A stretch of 64,000 nt of DNA from Chloracidobacterium sp. (lineage in GTDB: Bacteria; Acidobacteriota; Blastocatellia; Chloracidobacteriales; Chloracidobacteriaceae), in assembly GCA_025057975.1 (NCBI GenBank), contig JANWUV010000014.1, positions 1 to 64,000 of the forward strand, read 5' to 3'. Positions 18,654-47,569 of the stretch are shown piece by piece. The position numbers and the translations under genes are program-made. A model generated the notes under the pieces. The model did no database searches and had not been told where the DNA came from. It was given only the letters and a program-made list of their open reading frames with translations. Each line of letters opens with the position of its first letter. Position 1 is the first letter of the stretch.

Positions 18654-21236
18654 ATGAACGCAACCGTCGCGGCGGCTCCAAGCAAACGTCACGAGATTGT
18701 CAATCGGCACGCCATTCTGGAGGCCATCCGCAGCATTTCTGCGATTGAAGAGCTTGTTGAATACGAGCAAGGCCAGGGCTACAAGTTCGGCGTCGATCTG
18801 GAAGTGGCTGTCTACGGTCGCAACTACGGACCGGGCAAGAAGGTCGGCCCATACATACGGATGTACGACTACCCACCGGGGCTGGAAATTGTCCGGCAGG
18901 GCGACTGGGACACCAACACGTTCTTCATCGTCGTCTCCGGCGCGGCGGAAGTGTTCATTAGCGGTGTGGCGGAGCCGGTCGCCGTCTTTGAGGCTGGAAA
19001 GCCCTTTGGCGAAATGGGCGTTCTAGCAGGTGCGCCGCGCAGCGCGACTGTCATCGCTCATCGTCAGCGCGGTGCGCGCCTTCTCGAAGTGCAGCGCCCG
19101 GCGCTGCGCATCTTACGTAAGCTCAAAAAGTTTGGGGCGGCGCTCGACATTACCTACCGCAACAACGGTCGCGCCGCCGCCGCCAACCAGCTTCAGGTTT
19201 CAGACGAGCTGAGAAAAAAGATCGCCGACATCGCCGATTTTCGGCTGGTGGCGCGTGGTCACGTCTTGACGAGTGAGGGTGAACCGGTTCGCCGCTTATT
19301 ATTTATCCGCGACGGTTGGGTGAAGCGCACCGGCCAAGCGCAGACTGGTGAAGCGACGGATTATCTCGGTCCTGGCTACATTCTGGGCTTTAATGCGCTG
19401 AGCGTCCGCGACGCCCGCTTTCCCTACCGAACCGTGGCGATGAGCCGTACGGAACTGCTGGAAGTTCCGGTGGAAGACCTGTACCGCGACCCGCAACTGC
19501 TTGACGCCATTAAGACGGCCTTAGGCGTGGCTGGCGAGATTGGGACGCCGCTGCAACCGGCCAAGCCCCTTCAGTTCAATCCGGCGGTCAGAGCCGCCCA
19601 GGAACGCCTGCTGGACAAAGGACTCGCCGACGCCAACAACCTGCTGCTGATGGACATGGACCTGTGCGTTCGTTGTGGGAACTGCTCCCTAGCCTGCCAT
19701 CAGATTCACGGACACGCCCGACTCAAGCGAACCGGCATTCAGGTTCTACGTCCAAAAACCCCGACTCACACGAAGCTTGACCAGTCGTTGCTGATGCCGT
19801 CCGTGTGCCTCCACTGCAAAGACCCGGAGTGCCTCACGGGATGTCCGACCGGGGCTATTGCGCGTTTTGAGGGCGGGCAGGTGGACATCCTCCCTAGCCT
19901 ATGTATTGGGTGCGGCGATTGTGCGACACAGTGCCCCTACAACGCGATTTCACTCGTTCCGCGCAGCGAACTCAAAAAAGCTAAGTCGCCGACCGTGGCT
20001 GCGCCATCCAAAAACGGCCAAGGTGGGTCCGACAAGGACAAAAACGCTGCGTCGGAAGTTGGGTCGTTCGATCCTTTCGCCGCCTTCGGGCTGCGCTTCG
20101 ACCCAAAGCCTGCTCCGGTCACCCAAAGCGAAGACTTGGTCGCCATCAAGTGCAACCTGTGCAACAACACACCGCTGAACCCTAAAGACGCGGCGGGCAA
20201 ACCGGTTTACGCCACACACAAATACAACTGCGAGGAAAATTGCCCGACCGGGGCGCTCAGGCGCGTCAAGCCCAACGAGTACTTCAACGAAATCGCGCAG
20301 ATTCACGGCACAGCGTTCCGATTGACGTCAGGGATGATTGTTGGGAATCGGTTCGGCCATACCGACCGCGCTAAGCTGTTGGCGCACATCGTGGGCGTCG
20401 CCTTCACGCTGGTGCTCTGCGGAGGAACGATGGCCGGCATTGTTCAGTACGGGCTGGGGACGCCGCTTTTCAGGTCTAGCTGGTTCAACTTCCGGTGGAT
20501 CACCGGTTTGGTCGGCCTTGTCGGCATCGTCGTCGTGATGCTTTACCCTGTCCGACGGCAGATGTGGCGGCGACGCGCCGGAGCGCTCAAGCTATGGATG
20601 CTGGCGCACACTTACGCCGGCGTTATCGCAGGCGTCATTTTGTTGCTCCACGGCGGGACAAACCTCGGCGGCCCGGTCACAGCGGCGCTGATGATTGCAT
20701 TTGATTTGGTGATTTTGACCGGACTAGTCGGCGTTTTGCTCTACCAACTCGGGCCGCGCATGCTGACCAAAATCGAAGGAGAACCGTTACTGGCCGAAGA
20801 CCTGATGCGTCGCCGTGACGAGTTGTACCAAGAAATTGCCGACCTGACCATAACGGCGCAGGAGCAAGCCGACAAGGAAGGACGCGGCGCACAGTTCCGG
20901 CAGACCTTCCTTCCAGCGCGCGACCGCGTGATTCGCGCGGTTTTGTCGCTTCGTTTCCTGTTACGGCAGTACGCACGCCGCGAGACGCTGGAGGCTCTGC
21001 TAGCCGACGCTCGCAAACGGTTCGGCGACGCCATCGCCCAGCAGACTAACGCCGCCGAGCAGGAGATCATGCGACAAATCATTGACGCAATCGCCACCAT
21101 TCGGCGGATTGACGCTCTGCTGTACATCCACCGGGCGCTCAAGCTGTGGATGCCGCCGCATGTTATCTCGACATCGGTGATGTTGGCCCTGTTGGTCGTG
21201 CATATCGCCCAAGTTGTGTACTATCTGTGGCGGTAA
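18654..21236 (+). CDS. Cyclic-nucleotide-binding / four-[4Fe-4S] ferredoxin / multi-TM protein (putative sensor-electron-transfer subunit)
   Basis: 860 residues. A cyclic-nucleotide-binding (CNB) domain spans about 65-175, with an intact phosphate cassette FGEMGVLAGAPRSAT. A second, degenerate CNB fold is at about 190-285. From about 335 there are four cysteine groups in DmsB/PsrB style: CVRCGNCSLAC, CLHCKDPECLTGCP, CIGCGDCATQCP and CNLC...CEENCP, enough for four [4Fe-4S]. A Gly/Lys/Ser linker (about 445-490) interrupts them. Residues 575-700 hold four TM helices with His in LLAHIVG, LAHTYAG and LLLHGG; a charged helical stretch follows, then a last TM near 837-859 flanked by PPH and VVHIAQ. 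Membrane His pairs suggest b-type heme. A weak ribosome binding site and 78 nt to the next gene suggest one operon. The function is inferred, not known. Confidence 0.85.
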   Translation: MNATVAAAPSKRHEIVNRHAILEAIRSISAIEELVEYEQGQGYKFGVDLEVAVYGRNYGPGKKVGPYIRMYDYPPGLEIVRQGDWDTNTFFIVVSGAAEVFISGVAEPVAVFEAGKPFGEMGVLAGAPRSATVIAHRQRGARLLEVQRPALRILRKLKKFGAALDITYRNNGRAAAANQLQVSDELRKKIADIADFRLVARGHVLTSEGEPVRRLLFIRDGWVKRTGQAQTGEATDYLGPGYILGFNALSVRDARFPYRTVAMSRTELLEVPVEDLYRDPQLLDAIKTALGVAGEIGTPLQPAKPLQFNPAVRAAQERLLDKGLADANNLLLMDMDLCVRCGNCSLACHQIHGHARLKRTGIQVLRPKTPTHTKLDQSLLMPSVCLHCKDPECLTGCPTGAIARFEGGQVDILPSLCIGCGDCATQCPYNAISLVPRSELKKAKSPTVAAPSKNGQGGSDKDKNAASEVGSFDPFAAFGLRFDPKPAPVTQSEDLVAIKCNLCNNTPLNPKDAAGKPVYATHKYNCEENCPTGALRRVKPNEYFNEIAQIHGTAFRLTSGMIVGNRFGHTDRAKLLAHIVGVAFTLVLCGGTMAGIVQYGLGTPLFRSSWFNFRWITGLVGLVGIVVVMLYPVRRQMWRRRAGALKLWMLAHTYAGVIAGVILLLHGGTNLGGPVTAALMIAFDLVILTGLVGVLLYQLGPRMLTKIEGEPLLAEDLMRRRDELYQEIADLTITAQEQADKEGRGAQFRQTFLPARDRVIRAVLSLRFLLRQYARRETLEALLADARKRFGDAIAQQTNAAEQEIMRQIIDAIATIRRIDALLYIHRALKLWMPPHVISTSVMLALLVVHIAQVVYYLWR

Positions 21237-21314
21237 TGCCTGTCGTGTGCCTTCTGCGGTGACGCCCCCGCCGCCTGCAACGCCCCTCGGAAACCTTCGG
21301 CTCATGGAGTCGCC

Positions 21315-24300
21315 GTGGCAAAACGCAGCCGTTTCACGATTCAGCGTAAAGACCTCTTGGACAAGGGCGATCTTGTTCTTGAACTGGAAGGTCTAGTTAT
21401 CGGCTCACAGGCCGGCTGTGATCTGCTGCTCAATCACCCAACGGTATCGCGCATTCACGCCGGCATTCGGGAAGTGGACGGTCGGTGGTGGCTGACGAAC
21501 CTTTCCAGTACGAACGGCACGCAGGTCAACGGCGCGCTAGTCGAGACGGTTGAACTCCAACCCGGAGATGTGATTCGCATTGGCGTCTTCGTCCTTCGCC
21601 CGACTTTCACGGAAGGGACGATGACGCTTGATATTGATCGCCATGTGGACGCTTACGCGGCGTCTGAGCAAAGTACGCGCCTGTTGGGCGACCCGCTACA
21701 GGCGACGGCTGAGGGCAAAACGGCGCTGCTGCCAAAACTGACCAGCTATCTGCAACAACGCGGGATCACGCGGCGGCTGAGCGACCAAACCCAGCGTTTG
21801 ACGGAGACGCCGCCCCTAGCAAATGTCCCCGAAGCGCCGCCGCCGAGCGCTACCGGCTTGCTGCAGGCAGCTCGATTACAGCGCAACCTGACGGGGTTGT
21901 TGACCTCGATTCTGTCGCTGCCAGAGCAGGAGCAAAAACGCTTCCAGCAGGCGATGAACGTCTTTTGGGAGCGGCGTAAGGCGGCCATCAAAGGCGAGCA
22001 GAAGCTTGATGAACAATCGCCGCTTGAACCCCGCGAACCGCCCGAAGAACTCAAAAAACACAACCTACACTTGGGCAAGAAGCGGTTTAACTGGACGCCG
22101 ACCAACGACCTGATTCGCCCATGGCCGCGCGGGTATCTGTATGTTTTTGGCGCAGTGGCGGCCGTTTTGTGCGTCATTGCTTTCTTTGTGTGGGAAGCGG
22201 CCTATTTGCCGGGTGATACGTCGAACCCGCACGCACTGCCGGCTGCGCAACTACCTGCGCCGATTCAGGAGCGCCTCCGCCTTAAGCTCGTGGCGAATGC
22301 ACCCGTCGCAAACAAGTGCAGCGCCTGCCACGCCGCGACGACTTCCATGCAGAACAAGTGCGTGGAGTGTCACGAGACCAACCACTTCAACACCACGATC
22401 ATTGCCAAGCACGAAGCGGCCAACATCCAGTGCGTTGACTGCCATACTGAGCACAAGGGCGCAGACTTCCGTCCTGGTGTCGTCTCGCGCAGCATGTGTA
22501 TTGACTGCCACCGGGATAACCCGACCCACCCCAAAGCTGTAAGTTTGAAGGACGGCTCACCCTTGCGCGAGCCGCATCGCGGTTCATTCGGTTACCCGGT
22601 GGAAAACGGCGTCTGGTCATGGCGACGCCCAATGAATCCAAAGTGGGACAGGCTTTTTTCGGAAAGCAAGACGCCGCTGGAGCCTTCCACGAAATTCCAC
22701 TTGATCCATGCCGCCGTCGCGCCATCTGCAAGCGCTTGGAAATGCAGCGAATGTCACGACGGCGCATTCGCCAAGGGCGCAGCTGAGATCAAAGTCATCA
22801 ACCGCGACAAGTGCGCCGTTTGTCACGGACAAGCCTACGTCCAAAAAGCGTCACTTGAGGAGTTGGATACAAACGCGCTGCGGCTTGGCATCAATTGCAA
22901 CTCCTGTCATGCGCAACATCCGCAGTCGCAAACGCTGACGGCTGCCCGCCGCGCACCGAGCGGTGGGCCTGAACCTGTCATTTTCACCAAGGATCGCGTC
23001 TATCGCGGCGGCAAAGATTGGCAGTGGACGAGTCTGGCAGCTAAGTTTGGCGGCTTCACCATCGGCGACTGGGCGCTCTTTTTTAGCTTGATTCCGCTGA
23101 CGAGCCTTGGCTTTCTCACCTTCGACACGCTGCGCAAGCGCCGTGAGCAAGCTGTTCTCAAGGGACGGGTGCTCGACTTGGCGAATCGGCATCGCAAGTT
23201 TACCGACACACGCTACGCCGAGCGGTGGGAATCTCCCGCCCAGATCGAACGGGCGCGCATCTCGGCAAGGGAAAATCCTGTGCCGCATCCGGTCATCAAT
23301 TACGAAACCTGCATTGGCTGCCACGCCTGCATTCTTGCCTGTCCGCAGGATGTACTCGGTTTTGATGACCAAGAGCACCACGCCATCGTCGTCAACCTCG
23401 AACAGTGCATGGAAGACACAGGCTGTCAGCAGGCGTGTCCAACCGTGCCGCAGTCATGCGTCCTGATCAACACGCGGCAGAACATCCGCGAAGCGCCAAA
23501 GCCCCTACGCAAGGGCGCAAGTGAGGGATTCGAAGCCGAAGGCGTACCGAGCGTTTACTTAGTCGGCGATGTGTCGGGCGTCCCGCTGATTCGCAACGCC
23601 ATCAAGGAAGGTCGGCTGGCGATTGAACGTATCGCCGAGAAACTCAAAGTAGAAGGGCCGGTCGCTGGGGCGGAGTACGATGTCGCCATTGTCGGCGTCG
23701 GGCCAGGCGGTATTTCCGCCGTCGCACGGGCGGCGGAACTGGGGTTGCGTTACGTGGCGTTGGAACAGGGCCGCCGGTATGCCACCATTGTTGACAAGTA
23801 CCCAGCTGGCAAGTATGTCGCCTTCAATCCCTTCAACCCAAACGAGCCGCCGCTGGGCGCGATTCGGCTGGAAGGCCCGGGCGACTTGAAGGAGACGATG
23901 CTTGCGTGGTGGGATGAAGCCGTCGAAAGGCTGGGGCTTGTCATCCACGAGTACGAGGGTTGTAAGGCCATCGTCCGGGAGGGCGACTACTTTTTGGTCA
24001 AAACGACCAAGAACGCTCAAGGCTACAAGGCGCGCAAGGTTGTGCTGGCGATTGGCAACGCAGGTGAACCGCGCAAGCTCGGCTGTCCCGGCGAGGTAGA
24101 GGGGCGGGTGATCTACCGCCTGCAAGACCCTGGCGCATTCAAAGGGAAGCATATCGTGGTGGTCGGCGCAGGCAACTCGGCGGTCGAAGCCGCCGTAGAC
24201 CTCGCCGGACAGCGCCAACCGGATGGAACAGTTAAATTCCCGCCCGACGCGGAAGCCAACCATGTCACGTTGGTCATTCGGTCGGATTTCCCAAAGGATT

Positions 24301-24542
24301 TGACGCTCGAAAACAAGATGTGGGTCTATTACTGCATAGACGCCGGACGGATTACGGCGTACTTTGGCGCTGGCATTCGGGAAATCACTGACCGTGAGGT
24401 TGTTATTGAGAGCATCCGCGACAAGCGTGAAATCGCCCGCATCCCAAACGACTACGTGTTTGCTTTGATCGGCAGCATTGCGCCTAAGGAGTTTCTAACC
24501 AAGCTGGGCATCAAGTACGCCGGGGACGACAAGCAACGGTGA
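21315..24542 (+). CDS. FHA - TM - heptaheme cytochrome c - TM - 2x[4Fe-4S] - FAD/NAD(P) oxidoreductase fusion
   Basis: 1075 residues, GTG start. FHA domain at about 15-100 with the phosphothreonine-binding GS, SRIH and NLSSTNGT motifs. A Pro-rich linker leads to TM1 (about 274-298). Seven CxxCH heme motifs follow at about 335, 349, 373, 395, 477, 500 and 529 (CSACH, CVECH, CVDCH, CIDCH, CSECH, CAVCH, CNSCH). TM2 is at about 583-605. Then come ferredoxin motifs CIGCHACILACP and CMEDTGCQQACP, a VYLVGDVSGVPLI segment, and a two-dinucleotide-domain flavoprotein with IVGVGPGGISA (about 791) and VVVGAGNSAVEAA (about 946). No CxxC disulfide is seen, so it is not a thioredoxin reductase. The layout predicts FHA and flavin in the cytoplasm and hemes outside. 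Family unnamed as far as I know. Confidence 0.87.
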   Translation: MAKRSRFTIQRKDLLDKGDLVLELEGLVIGSQAGCDLLLNHPTVSRIHAGIREVDGRWWLTNLSSTNGTQVNGALVETVELQPGDVIRIGVFVLRPTFTEGTMTLDIDRHVDAYAASEQSTRLLGDPLQATAEGKTALLPKLTSYLQQRGITRRLSDQTQRLTETPPLANVPEAPPPSATGLLQAARLQRNLTGLLTSILSLPEQEQKRFQQAMNVFWERRKAAIKGEQKLDEQSPLEPREPPEELKKHNLHLGKKRFNWTPTNDLIRPWPRGYLYVFGAVAAVLCVIAFFVWEAAYLPGDTSNPHALPAAQLPAPIQERLRLKLVANAPVANKCSACHAATTSMQNKCVECHETNHFNTTIIAKHEAANIQCVDCHTEHKGADFRPGVVSRSMCIDCHRDNPTHPKAVSLKDGSPLREPHRGSFGYPVENGVWSWRRPMNPKWDRLFSESKTPLEPSTKFHLIHAAVAPSASAWKCSECHDGAFAKGAAEIKVINRDKCAVCHGQAYVQKASLEELDTNALRLGINCNSCHAQHPQSQTLTAARRAPSGGPEPVIFTKDRVYRGGKDWQWTSLAAKFGGFTIGDWALFFSLIPLTSLGFLTFDTLRKRREQAVLKGRVLDLANRHRKFTDTRYAERWESPAQIERARISARENPVPHPVINYETCIGCHACILACPQDVLGFDDQEHHAIVVNLEQCMEDTGCQQACPTVPQSCVLINTRQNIREAPKPLRKGASEGFEAEGVPSVYLVGDVSGVPLIRNAIKEGRLAIERIAEKLKVEGPVAGAEYDVAIVGVGPGGISAVARAAELGLRYVALEQGRRYATIVDKYPAGKYVAFNPFNPNEPPLGAIRLEGPGDLKETMLAWWDEAVERLGLVIHEYEGCKAIVREGDYFLVKTTKNAQGYKARKVVLAIGNAGEPRKLGCPGEVEGRVIYRLQDPGAFKGKHIVVVGAGNSAVEAAVDLAGQRQPDGTVKFPPDAEANHVTLVIRSDFPKDLTLENKMWVYYCIDAGRITAYFGAGIREITDREVVIESIRDKREIARIPNDYVFALIGSIAPKEFLTKLGIKYAGDDKQR

Positions 24543-45772: not shown

Positions 45773-47569
45773 TTAGTCTTTCGGAGCGCTTTCAGCGGCT
45801 TTTTCCGCTTGGCGGATACGTTCGATGTTGCGCTTCTCCAGCGGCGTCAGCTTGTCGCCTACGTCGTTGCCGGTCGGACGATACCAAGGCTTGGCGTTGA
45901 AATGTTCGGCGAGTTCCGGGTCGGAAAACCGATACCCATGCCGCGCCAGAATTTCATTCCGCATCAGACGCAGTTCCTCGCGGGTTAGGTTGCGGAGGTC
46001 GTCGTCCGTCAAGTCGCGCAAGGAGGCTTCCGGGAAGTCGCCGGGGACATCCTCCGGGTTGGGTGACGACGCTTCCTGCGACCGACGCGGCGGCCCCGAC
46101 GGCTTGGTGTACACGCTCAGTCCCCGTTCTCGAATGCGCGCCGCCGCCGTCTTTGCATCGGCTTCGGTAGCGTAAACGCCCAGCGCCACAATGTAGAAAC
46201 CCGGCTCGAAGTTCGTCCACTCATCCGTCTTGACGACAAACGGCTCGAAGCCGGCCTTAGCGTAGTCGGCGCGTTTGGCTTCGGCGGCTTCCGGCGTCCT
46301 CGCTGAAAAGCCGATGACGTACACGCCTTCCGAACCGGGCGCAAGCGGCGGCGGGGGCGGCGGCTCGTCTCCATCGGACGGACTGGACGGTGGAGGCGTA
46401 GGGGGCGCATCCACCGGCACGGCGGGTGTCGGCGATGTGGCGACGGGCGGCGGCGGGGGCGTCGGCGTGGACTGAAAAGCCCGGCCTTGAAAGTACATCA
46501 GCAGCGCCAGAAACAGCGTCGCCCCCAACACCAGCGCCACGGCCGCCCCGGCGGCCACCCACCACCAACCCTGCGTGCGCTGGTCGGCGGCCGACGTGGA
46601 CGGCCGGTGGGACGCAGGTACCACGGTTTCAGCCGTAGCCGGCGGAGGCGGTGGGTTGAACACCGGTATGGTTGACGCGGGACTCGCCGCACGCCCATCG
46701 GTTGTGCGCTGCACCGGTTGGGTCGCCGGCTCGTTGTTCCCGTCCACAGGCCGGCGCACCACCGGTTGCGTCGGCTGCGTCAGGAGCTGCACCAACGCCT
46801 GCCGCATCGCCGTCGCCGTTGGAAAGCGACGCGCCGGGTCTTTGCACAGCGCCGTCGCCACAAAGCGATGGACGGCCGCCGGTAGTGTGGCGGGCAGCGG
46901 GACCGGGTCGCGTGTCACAATCGCGCCCATCAAGGCCGTCAAGTCCTGCTGCGGGAACGGCAACCCACCTGTCAACAACTGCTGAAACATCACGCCCGCC
47001 GCCCAGAGGTCGCCCTGCTCCGTGCGCACGCCGTCAAAAGCTTCCGGCGGCATGTAGGCCGGCGTTCCCGCGATCAGCCCCGTCCGCGACGTAGCGTGAA
47101 TGACGCGCGCGATGCCGAAGTCGGCCAAGCGCGGCGTATCGCCTTGGAGGAGGATGTTCGCCGGTTTGAGATCGCGGTGGACGATTTGGCGACCGTGGAG
47201 ATGCTCCAGTCCGGCTAAAATCCCGTCGAGCATCCTGACGGCTTCCGGCAGCGCCACGCGCCCGCCCTTCCGCGCCAGCCAATCCACCAGCGAGCCGTCC
47301 GGGGCGTATTCGCTCACGATGACCACCTGCCCGTCGTAAATGTCGGCTTCAATGATGGGCAGCACATTCGGATGGCCGCTGGCCTGCGCCCAGACGGCGG
47401 CTTCCTTGCGGATGGCGTCGAGGTCGGCGTCGTCGGCCAGCGGGATTTTGAGCGCGACACGGGTGACGGCCAGTTTGGTTCGCCGTTCGGCCAACCAGAC
47501 CTGCCCAAACGCGCCCCGCCCTAGCAGTCGAACAAGCGTGTAGGGTCCGAGAGCACCGCCGGGCTGCAT
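45773..47569 (-). CDS. Transmembrane Ser/Thr protein kinase with extracytoplasmic SPOR and YARHG domains
   Basis: 598 residues. PASTA-less Hanks-type kinase domain 8-280: GRGAFGQV, Lys41 (VALKIPL), HRD at 131-133 (HRDLKPANIL), DFG at 150-152, and PPE for APE. A Pro/Thr linker is followed by one TM at about 332-358 (WWVAAGAAVALVLGATLF). Outside there is another Pro-rich stretch, a SPOR-like domain about 414-492 (VYVIGFSARTPEAAEA, FYIVALGVYATEADAK) and a YARHG domain about 520-590 (LMRNEILARHGYRF, WYRPTGNDV). SPOR domains bind denuded peptidoglycan; YARHG is an extracellular domain of unknown function. The kinase probably senses the cell wall. No phosphatase is adjacent. Confidence 0.93.
   Translation of the reverse strand: MQPGGALGPYTLVRLLGRGAFGQVWLAERRTKLAVTRVALKIPLADDADLDAIRKEAAVWAQASGHPNVLPIIEADIYDGQVVIVSEYAPDGSLVDWLARKGGRVALPEAVRMLDGILAGLEHLHGRQIVHRDLKPANILLQGDTPRLADFGIARVIHATSRTGLIAGTPAYMPPEAFDGVRTEQGDLWAAGVMFQQLLTGGLPFPQQDLTALMGAIVTRDPVPLPATLPAAVHRFVATALCKDPARRFPTATAMRQALVQLLTQPTQPVVRRPVDGNNEPATQPVQRTTDGRAASPASTIPVFNPPPPPATAETVVPASHRPSTSAADQRTQGWWWVAAGAAVALVLGATLFLALLMYFQGRAFQSTPTPPPPPVATSPTPAVPVDAPPTPPPSSPSDGDEPPPPPPLAPGSEGVYVIGFSARTPEAAEAKRADYAKAGFEPFVVKTDEWTNFEPGFYIVALGVYATEADAKTAAARIRERGLSVYTKPSGPPRRSQEASSPNPEDVPGDFPEASLRDLTDDDLRNLTREELRLMRNEILARHGYRFSDPELAEHFNAKPWYRPTGNDVGDKLTPLEKRNIERIRQAEKAAESAPKD

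Follow-up and report, generated by a model that had tools for sequence, protein, structure and literature searches.

A conserved gene pair of Chloracidobacterium that likely encodes an inner-membrane electron-transfer complex bearing sensor domains

Organization of the gene pair

The two genes described here, gene A and gene B, are located in a 64,000-nucleotide stretch of Chloracidobacterium sp. DNA (GenBank contig JANWUV010000014.1, positions 1 to 64,000; hereafter the window), which belongs to a genome of 3.52 Mb. Both genes are on the forward strand and are separated by 78 bases. A preliminary description, made from the sequence by itself, had placed two open reading frames (ORFs) here and had assigned domains to them; both ORFs were confirmed at their coordinates and strand, and the domain composition was borne out by Pfam and by motif conservation. 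The pair is real, conserved and apparently undescribed. CNB stands for cyclic nucleotide-binding and TM for transmembrane in the features listed below.

18654..21236, + strand: gene A, 860 residues; CNB1, degenerate-looking CNB2, four [4Fe-4S] clusters and five TM helices with a cytoplasmic helical hairpin (ORF, Pfam, conservation, structure model)
18867..19178, + strand: CNB1, residues about 72-175, phosphate-binding cassette 118-132 (Pfam 73-152)
19179..19613, + strand: CNB2, residues about 176-320 (second Pfam stretch, fold match)
19656..20246, + strand: four [4Fe-4S] clusters, 16 Cys within residues 338-530 (Cys conservation, sub-cut-off DsrO/DmsB match)
20367..21233, + strand: membrane part of A, helices 572-599, 613-637, 646-666, 674-707 and 833-859, with His652, His666, His836 and His850 (AlphaFold model)
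21315..24542, + strand: gene B, 1075 residues, GTG start (ORF and Pfam)
21315..21614, + strand: FHA domain, residues 1-100, presumably cytoplasmic (Pfam 28-90, E 4e-18); Ser31 at the usual Arg position
22131..22190, + strand: TM helix 1 of B, about residues 273-292 (hydropathy and model)
22230..22919, + strand: heptaheme region, with CXXCH motifs (seven, 335-532) and conserved additional His at seven positions (306, 366, 380, 421, 462, 465 and 535)
23061..23126, + strand: TM helix 2 of B, about residues 583-604 (model helix 583-627)
23310..23459, + strand: two [4Fe-4S] clusters of B, Cys 666/669/672/676 and 698/704/708/715 (Fer4_10)
23535..24539, + strand: permuted YpdA/TrxR-like FAD and NAD(P)H domain; FAD motif 747-780, Rossmann Gly 794-799, NAD(P)H motif 950-956, Arg989

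In gene A, Pfam matched cNMP_binding in two stretches (E 2.3e-25) and Fer4 several times; in gene B, it identified FHA (4e-18), cytochrome c3/c7, Fer4_10 and Pyr_redox_3 (5.7e-27). The domain order of Chloracidobacterium B is FHA, TM helix, seven c-type hemes, TM helix, two [4Fe-4S] clusters and YpdA/TrxR-like flavoprotein. Among the NCBIfam matches listed (the best 25 of 88 and the best 25 of 82), all scores are under the cut-off and the best is far below it. Comparison with a congener gave dN 0.118 versus dS 1.35 for gene A, and dN 0.072 versus dS 1.72 for gene B.

Redox and sensor domains of the two proteins

The cassette of CNB1 keeps Arg129 in all 54 A proteins compared and Glu120 in 53 of them; this Glu/Arg pair, which is typical of cyclic nucleotide binding, was found in CNB1 only. 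The CNB2 region of the A model matches solved structures over residues 170-299 (Z 13.8, rmsd 2.4, 123 residues), and the best 50 matches listed in the fold search of the A model are all of CNB type. The 16 Cys that follow the CNB domains are invariant in 54/54 A proteins. With scores of 67.1 for DsrO (cut-off 200) and 48.4 for DmsB (cut-off 214.1), the Fe-S part of A falls outside both families; its resemblance to DsrO, DmsB, TtrB, HmcB and QrcC is weak and below the NCBIfam cut-offs. The A profile also matches chain B of the FdnH structure (1kqf_B) with an E value of 5e-12.

The membrane part of A has no Pfam match at E up to 1. In the AlphaFold model, residues 572-859 form five long helices, the block confidence of which is mostly 81-96 (60-66 at residues 631-650). 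His652 and His666 share helix 646-666, whereas His836 and His850 share helix 833-859; the two residues of each pair are 14 residues apart (H-x13-H). His652, His666, His826, His836 and His850 are invariant in the 54 A proteins, and His578 is kept in 53 of them. Free-standing genes downstream of CNB-FeS genes encode proteins that align with the membrane part of A. Thirteen of these were aligned with five A proteins; three belong to other families of the same class, six to other Acidobacteriota and four to other phyla. They are 15-24% identical to the window protein, and among the 12 invariant columns of the 18 rows four are His652, His666, His836 and His850. The arrangement typical of two-heme cytochromes b, with two His pairs on two helices, is thus present in 54/54 A proteins and in 18/18 aligned rows. 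Because 13 relatives of such low identity retain all four His unchanged, we regard the membrane part of A as a probable two-heme cytochrome b family that no Pfam model matches above its cut-off. Pfam gave only sub-threshold hints for the free-standing relatives, to cytochrome b561, ferric reductase and DUF4405; for eight relatives, the best scores were 16.9 of 30.1 bits against cytochrome b561/Ni_hydr_CYTB and 17.3 of 26.7 bits against DUF4405, below the gathering scores; a shared origin with these families is still conceivable. His652 and His836 are near the starts of their helices in the model, and His666 and His850 are towards the ends. If the two helices run in the same direction, the pairs His652/His836 and His666/His850 would therefore lie on opposite sides of the membrane. 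The heme pairing and the topology are predicted.

Gene B carries seven hemes; an eighth CXXCH (C666-x2-C669-H670) belongs to the first Fe-S motif. All seven CXXCH and seven additional His are conserved; with these, each heme could have two His, and the heme domain would then have no obvious open catalytic site. The last heme of the separate heme proteins (B1) is gapped in the combined alignment (23/34 rows) and is present when B1 is aligned alone (21 rows). None of the eight Fe-S Cys of B varies among the 29 rows of fused B or separate FeS-flavoprotein (B2). TM helix 2 is missed by the hydropathy cut-off in the window protein and is detected in most fused relatives.

The flavoprotein of B is circularly permuted. 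Residues 747-780 resemble the C-terminal FAD motif of TrxR-type enzymes, yet they precede the Rossmann motif at residue 794. A profile of this stretch was built from 39 permuted proteins and was run on 16 homologues and 320 shuffled sequences. It matches the end of the domain in 13 of the 15 ordinary homologues (E 4e-11 to 0.0045); in one of them, L231 of the same genome, the match covers residues 288-330 of 333 (E 2e-5). The profile misses the ordinary homologues L200 (E 0.83) and L233 (5.1), and the best shuffle reached 1.1. The sixteenth homologue, an 818-residue ORF from another family of the class (L238), is itself permuted, with the C-terminal FAD motif ahead of the Rossmann motif. Model confidence for the permuted stretch is high, with block means of 80-97. 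Residues 785-1073 match YpdA (7a7b; Z 18.7, rmsd 5.6, 261 residues), and the fold search of the B model returned flavoprotein rows only. The Gly motifs are conserved, as expected for a TrxR fold with FAD and NAD(P)H Rossmann motifs; the TIGR04018 (YpdA) score is 120.1 bits against a cut-off of 339.9, which places the domain outside that family, and no CXXC was seen by eye in residues 785-1073. Another genome of the family encodes a permuted YpdA-like flavoprotein joined to a NapH-like membrane polyferredoxin (L217:2497-4890, - strand, 797 residues), and similar long matches are present in genomes G008, G009, G011 and G012.

Conservation of gene order and other fusions

Of 98 related genomes, 47 match A with an E value of 1e-100 or lower, and part of B is on the same contig in 46 of the 47. 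The sole exception is G012, in which A runs off a 5 kb contig; in G044, conversely, the contig with B breaks off at the expected place of A, and A was not found. A species-level scan, with one genome per species, provided 77 loci from the best 80 of 239 matches; it used two peptide patterns from close relatives, so that distant members are under-reported. In 58 of the 73 loci L108-L180, A is followed by the heme gene, on the same strand in all 58; all loci were recruited via A, and the count tests only what follows A. As for the remaining 15 loci, A runs off the contig in 12, L129 ends 22 bases past A, the FHA gene just begins at the edge of L134, and L180 differs. Conserved adjacency, which had been set beforehand as a test of the pair, is thus seen in every testable locus of Blastocatellia, and homologues are not mostly found apart. 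The heme gene carries FHA in 57/58 loci; in L151, FHA is a separate gene between A and the heme gene. B is fused in 11 of the 58 loci, a separate FeS-flavoprotein gene comes next in 34, and neither is found in 13.

Among 297 Acidobacteriota genomes, 37 matched the CNB-FeS profile at E 1e-45, and 19 of the 37 lie outside the class. Of 21 CNB-FeS places outside the class, 20 loci from these 19 genomes were examined, all except G301:C490. The flavoprotein is fused ahead of CNB-CNB-FeS in six loci and is separate in eight; a nine- or ten-heme neighbor is present in 19, and FHA occurs in some form in at least ten. Pfam was run on the neighbors of the ten-heme genes in L200 and L205 only, and the FHA counts are therefore minima. 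FHA is present twice in L205, together with ten hemes, and L200 (10730-13096, + strand) encodes a 788-residue flavoprotein with two FHA domains and a 2Fe-2S (Fer2) domain. The membrane-gene profile found its gene in 19 of the 20 loci, six of which had helped to build it; the same profile detects a putative cytochrome b gene in L196, L197, L199 and L201.

Other phyla were sampled rather than fully surveyed: CNB-FeS was found in 2/118 and 3/297 genomes (overlapping draws, one genome in both) and in 1/40. L180 (Candidatus Binataceae), L226 and L227 have the order CNB-FeS, cytochrome b and multiheme-permuted flavoprotein, with no FHA seen; in L230, the order is CNB-FeS, cytochrome b and ten-heme gene. 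L223, from another phylum, encodes flavoprotein-CNB-CNB-FeS in one chain. This recurrence of the same parts, as separate genes or in different fusions, argues for one working complex, and we take it as good evidence that the arrangements represent one system. A CNB-FeS relative was also found by tblastn in 12 records of Sphingobium megaplasmids, at 24-27% identity over 53-56% of A.

The surroundings of the genes were compared among the 73 loci as well. Multiheme proteins of nine, eight and four hemes are present in 31, 27 and 26 loci, respectively, and a family that is HbpS-like by its representative is present in 19. The multiheme genes occur on either side and on either strand, so they are neighbors rather than parts of a single operon. 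In L160 (14150-20546) and similar loci, four-, eight- and nine-heme and HbpS-like neighbors are close to the A-B1 genes; in L205, an HbpS-like protein is also encoded after the ten-heme gene. In the window, the neighbors named by eye are NuoI-, RapZ-, phosphatase-, RdgB- and sigma factor-like. No molybdopterin catalytic subunit adjoins the pair in the window, and none was evident among the 14 commonest neighbor clusters of the 73 loci, clusters that were not individually annotated. An ACIII-like locus, with ActA and ActB named by eye, is located on another contig (C4) of the same genome; the A-B pair lacks this combination of an ActB-like subunit with a pentaheme ActA. Near the ACIII-like locus, at G000:C4:105750-110582, there are a pentaheme ActA-like gene and a gene for a multiheme protein of about 480 residues. 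The PF14522 multiheme family has seven matches in the genome. These surroundings suggest that the complex may feed a periplasmic cytochrome pool in the relatives and a different partner in this genome.

Proposed complex, its control and alternative readings

We consider it likely, with some reserve, that A and B together make up an electron-transfer complex of the inner membrane, belonging to a family for which the sources searched give no description. The core would have two parts. In A, a ferredoxin part with four clusters would sit in the cytoplasm on a two-heme cytochrome b; in B, a periplasmic seven-heme c wire would be held by an FHA-bearing membrane anchor. On the cytoplasmic side, Chloracidobacterium B would extend this core by two Fe-S clusters and the permuted FAD domain of TrxR type. 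Electrons would pass from NAD(P)H to FAD, the two clusters of B and the four clusters of A, then to the heme b near the cytoplasm (His652/His836) and the heme b near the periplasm (His666/His850), where the quinone pool could join. From the latter, they would reach the seven hemes c and a periplasmic cytochrome partner, which is speculative. The path from flavin through Fe-S clusters and membrane to hemes is a well-supported reading, and a function as a wire is likely; we infer the direction of flow and the electron donor, and reverse flow would also be possible. CNB1, through a nucleotide ligand, and FHA, through phosphorylation, may set the activity or the assembly of the complex; this gating is speculative.

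Several observations weigh against this proposal. Model confidence is low for the Fe-S part of A (block means 36-72) and middling for the heme part of B (28-82). Nine Blastocatellia loci (L139, L142, L147, L151, L152, L160, L162, L174 and L175) have no flavoprotein at the locus despite more than 5 kb past the heme gene, and NAD(P)H is therefore not necessarily the donor in every case. In L223, no cytochrome b gene and no multiheme gene was found beside the flavoprotein-CNB-FeS chain; L212 likewise shows neither, and no multiheme gene was seen beside A-B within the window. CNB2 looks degenerate: in the 54 A proteins, the conserved phosphate-binding Arg is absent at the position expected from the cassette. 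In the FHA domain of the window, Ser31 replaces the usual Arg of the GR motif; the 11 fused rows all keep SRxH and NG, and the Arg is replaced by Ser in seven (including the window) and by Ala in one, being kept in three. Finally, no PF00211 (class III) cyclase, the only cyclase family searched, was found in the genome at E 0.001; as a control, the same search gave matches in 5 of 14 genomes.

The continuous electron path claimed in the preliminary description is plausible, but the flavoprotein is not obligatory. Its second claim, gating by the sensor domains, is supported in part: it agrees with the conserved Arg129 and Glu120 of CNB1, whereas the lack of a PF00211 match, the FHA without the GR Arg and the CNB2 without its Arg do not favor it. 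In the 23 separate-gene rows, FHA has Arg in 21, N67 in 14 and G68 in 10. The genome has 37 kinase matches, 32 of them over the cut-off (some are perhaps pieces of one gene), which makes a source of phosphothreonine likely; one of them, a Ser/Thr protein kinase domain, is encoded in the window at 46802-47542 (- strand).

Electron flow in the opposite sense, from periplasmic donors through the hemes to the reduction of NAD(P)+ or ferredoxin in lithotrophic or reverse transport, is an unlikely alternative. Every step is reversible in principle, A-B1 without flavoprotein could supply other cytoplasmic acceptors, and TrxR-type ferredoxin-NADP reductases operate both ways, which is a point for uptake; however, no recognizable gene for a periplasmic oxidase or dehydrogenase was seen by eye beside the locus in the window. 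It is rather improbable that the chain is a redox sensor instead of a current-carrying wire, reporting the quinone or NAD(P)H state to CNB and FHA, which would act on kinases or other proteins. The recurrence of CNB and FHA in differing fusions, the 32 kinase matches and the missing PF00211 cyclase agree with such a sensor, but about sixteen cofactors (six Fe-S clusters, two b and seven c hemes, and FAD) exceed its need, multiheme cytochromes are nearby in up to 31/73 loci in other Blastocatellia, and L180, L226 and L227 retain the redox parts with no FHA seen. Despite the weak likeness of the Fe-S part to DsrO, DmsB and TtrB, an ordinary respiratory module of DmsABC, Nrf or ACIII type with stray regulatory domains is very improbable, given a best NCBIfam score of 67.1 against 200, a membrane His pattern of cytochrome b rather than NrfD, no molybdoenzyme gene adjoining in the window and a separate ACIII-like locus in the genome.

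Complexes of Fe-S proteins, cytochrome b and multiheme c are of a known kind; for the composition of A-B, for its cytochrome b family and for the permuted flavoprotein, no precedent was found in the sources searched. In the FdnH-FdnI and hydrogenase type, a four-[4Fe-4S] ferredoxin subunit feeds a two-heme cytochrome b. A would share this pairing, and its profile matches FdnH; different from FdnH-FdnI, it is a single chain with two CNB domains, without a catalytic subunit and without a Pfam cytochrome b match above the cut-off. Hmc, Tmc, Qrc, ACIII and DsrMKJOP are membrane chains that join Fe-S protein, membrane protein and multiheme c. Their likeness to A lies in the DsrO, HmcB and QrcC scores, which are far under the cut-off; to our knowledge, their membrane subunit is a different one, and they have neither sensor domains nor a flavoprotein of this sort. 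Like YpdA (bacillithiol disulfide reductase) and the TrxR-type ferredoxin-NADP reductases, B has their fold in residues 785-1073, but its domain is permuted and fused to Fe-S clusters, TM helices and hemes. CbcL, CymA and ImcH are inner-membrane gates of extracellular electron transfer. Compared by description, they resemble A-B in the proposed role only, from the inner membrane to periplasmic multiheme cytochromes; we know of no CNB, FHA or flavin in them. The claim that no described complex has this composition was supported by the Pfam, NCBIfam and structure-profile comparisons. No description of the pair or of the permuted flavoprotein was found in the open-licence literature, preprints excluded, judged by titles and abstract openings among the matches listed.

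Respiratory electron flow is mostly considered to be controlled via gene expression and substrate supply. Ligand- and phosphopeptide-binding domains on electron-carrying chains would open the post-translational control of electron flow across the membrane to direct tests; if the sensor domains control the complex, it would be a wire that cells switch directly. As a tentative and somewhat doubtful extension, a nucleotide second messenger and phosphorylation might directly set a current from NAD(P)H to the periplasm, through a gated wire distributed across Acidobacteriota and sporadically in other phyla, with the permuted flavoprotein as a plug-in donor. The substrates of multiheme cytochromes of Acidobacteriota are mostly unknown, as stated for wastewater metagenome-assembled genomes (PMC8100337), and the phylum includes a genus with phototrophy (PMC5629043). 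The A-B complex would be a candidate inner-membrane gate for the orphan multiheme cytochromes of Acidobacteriota, including those of a phototrophic genus.

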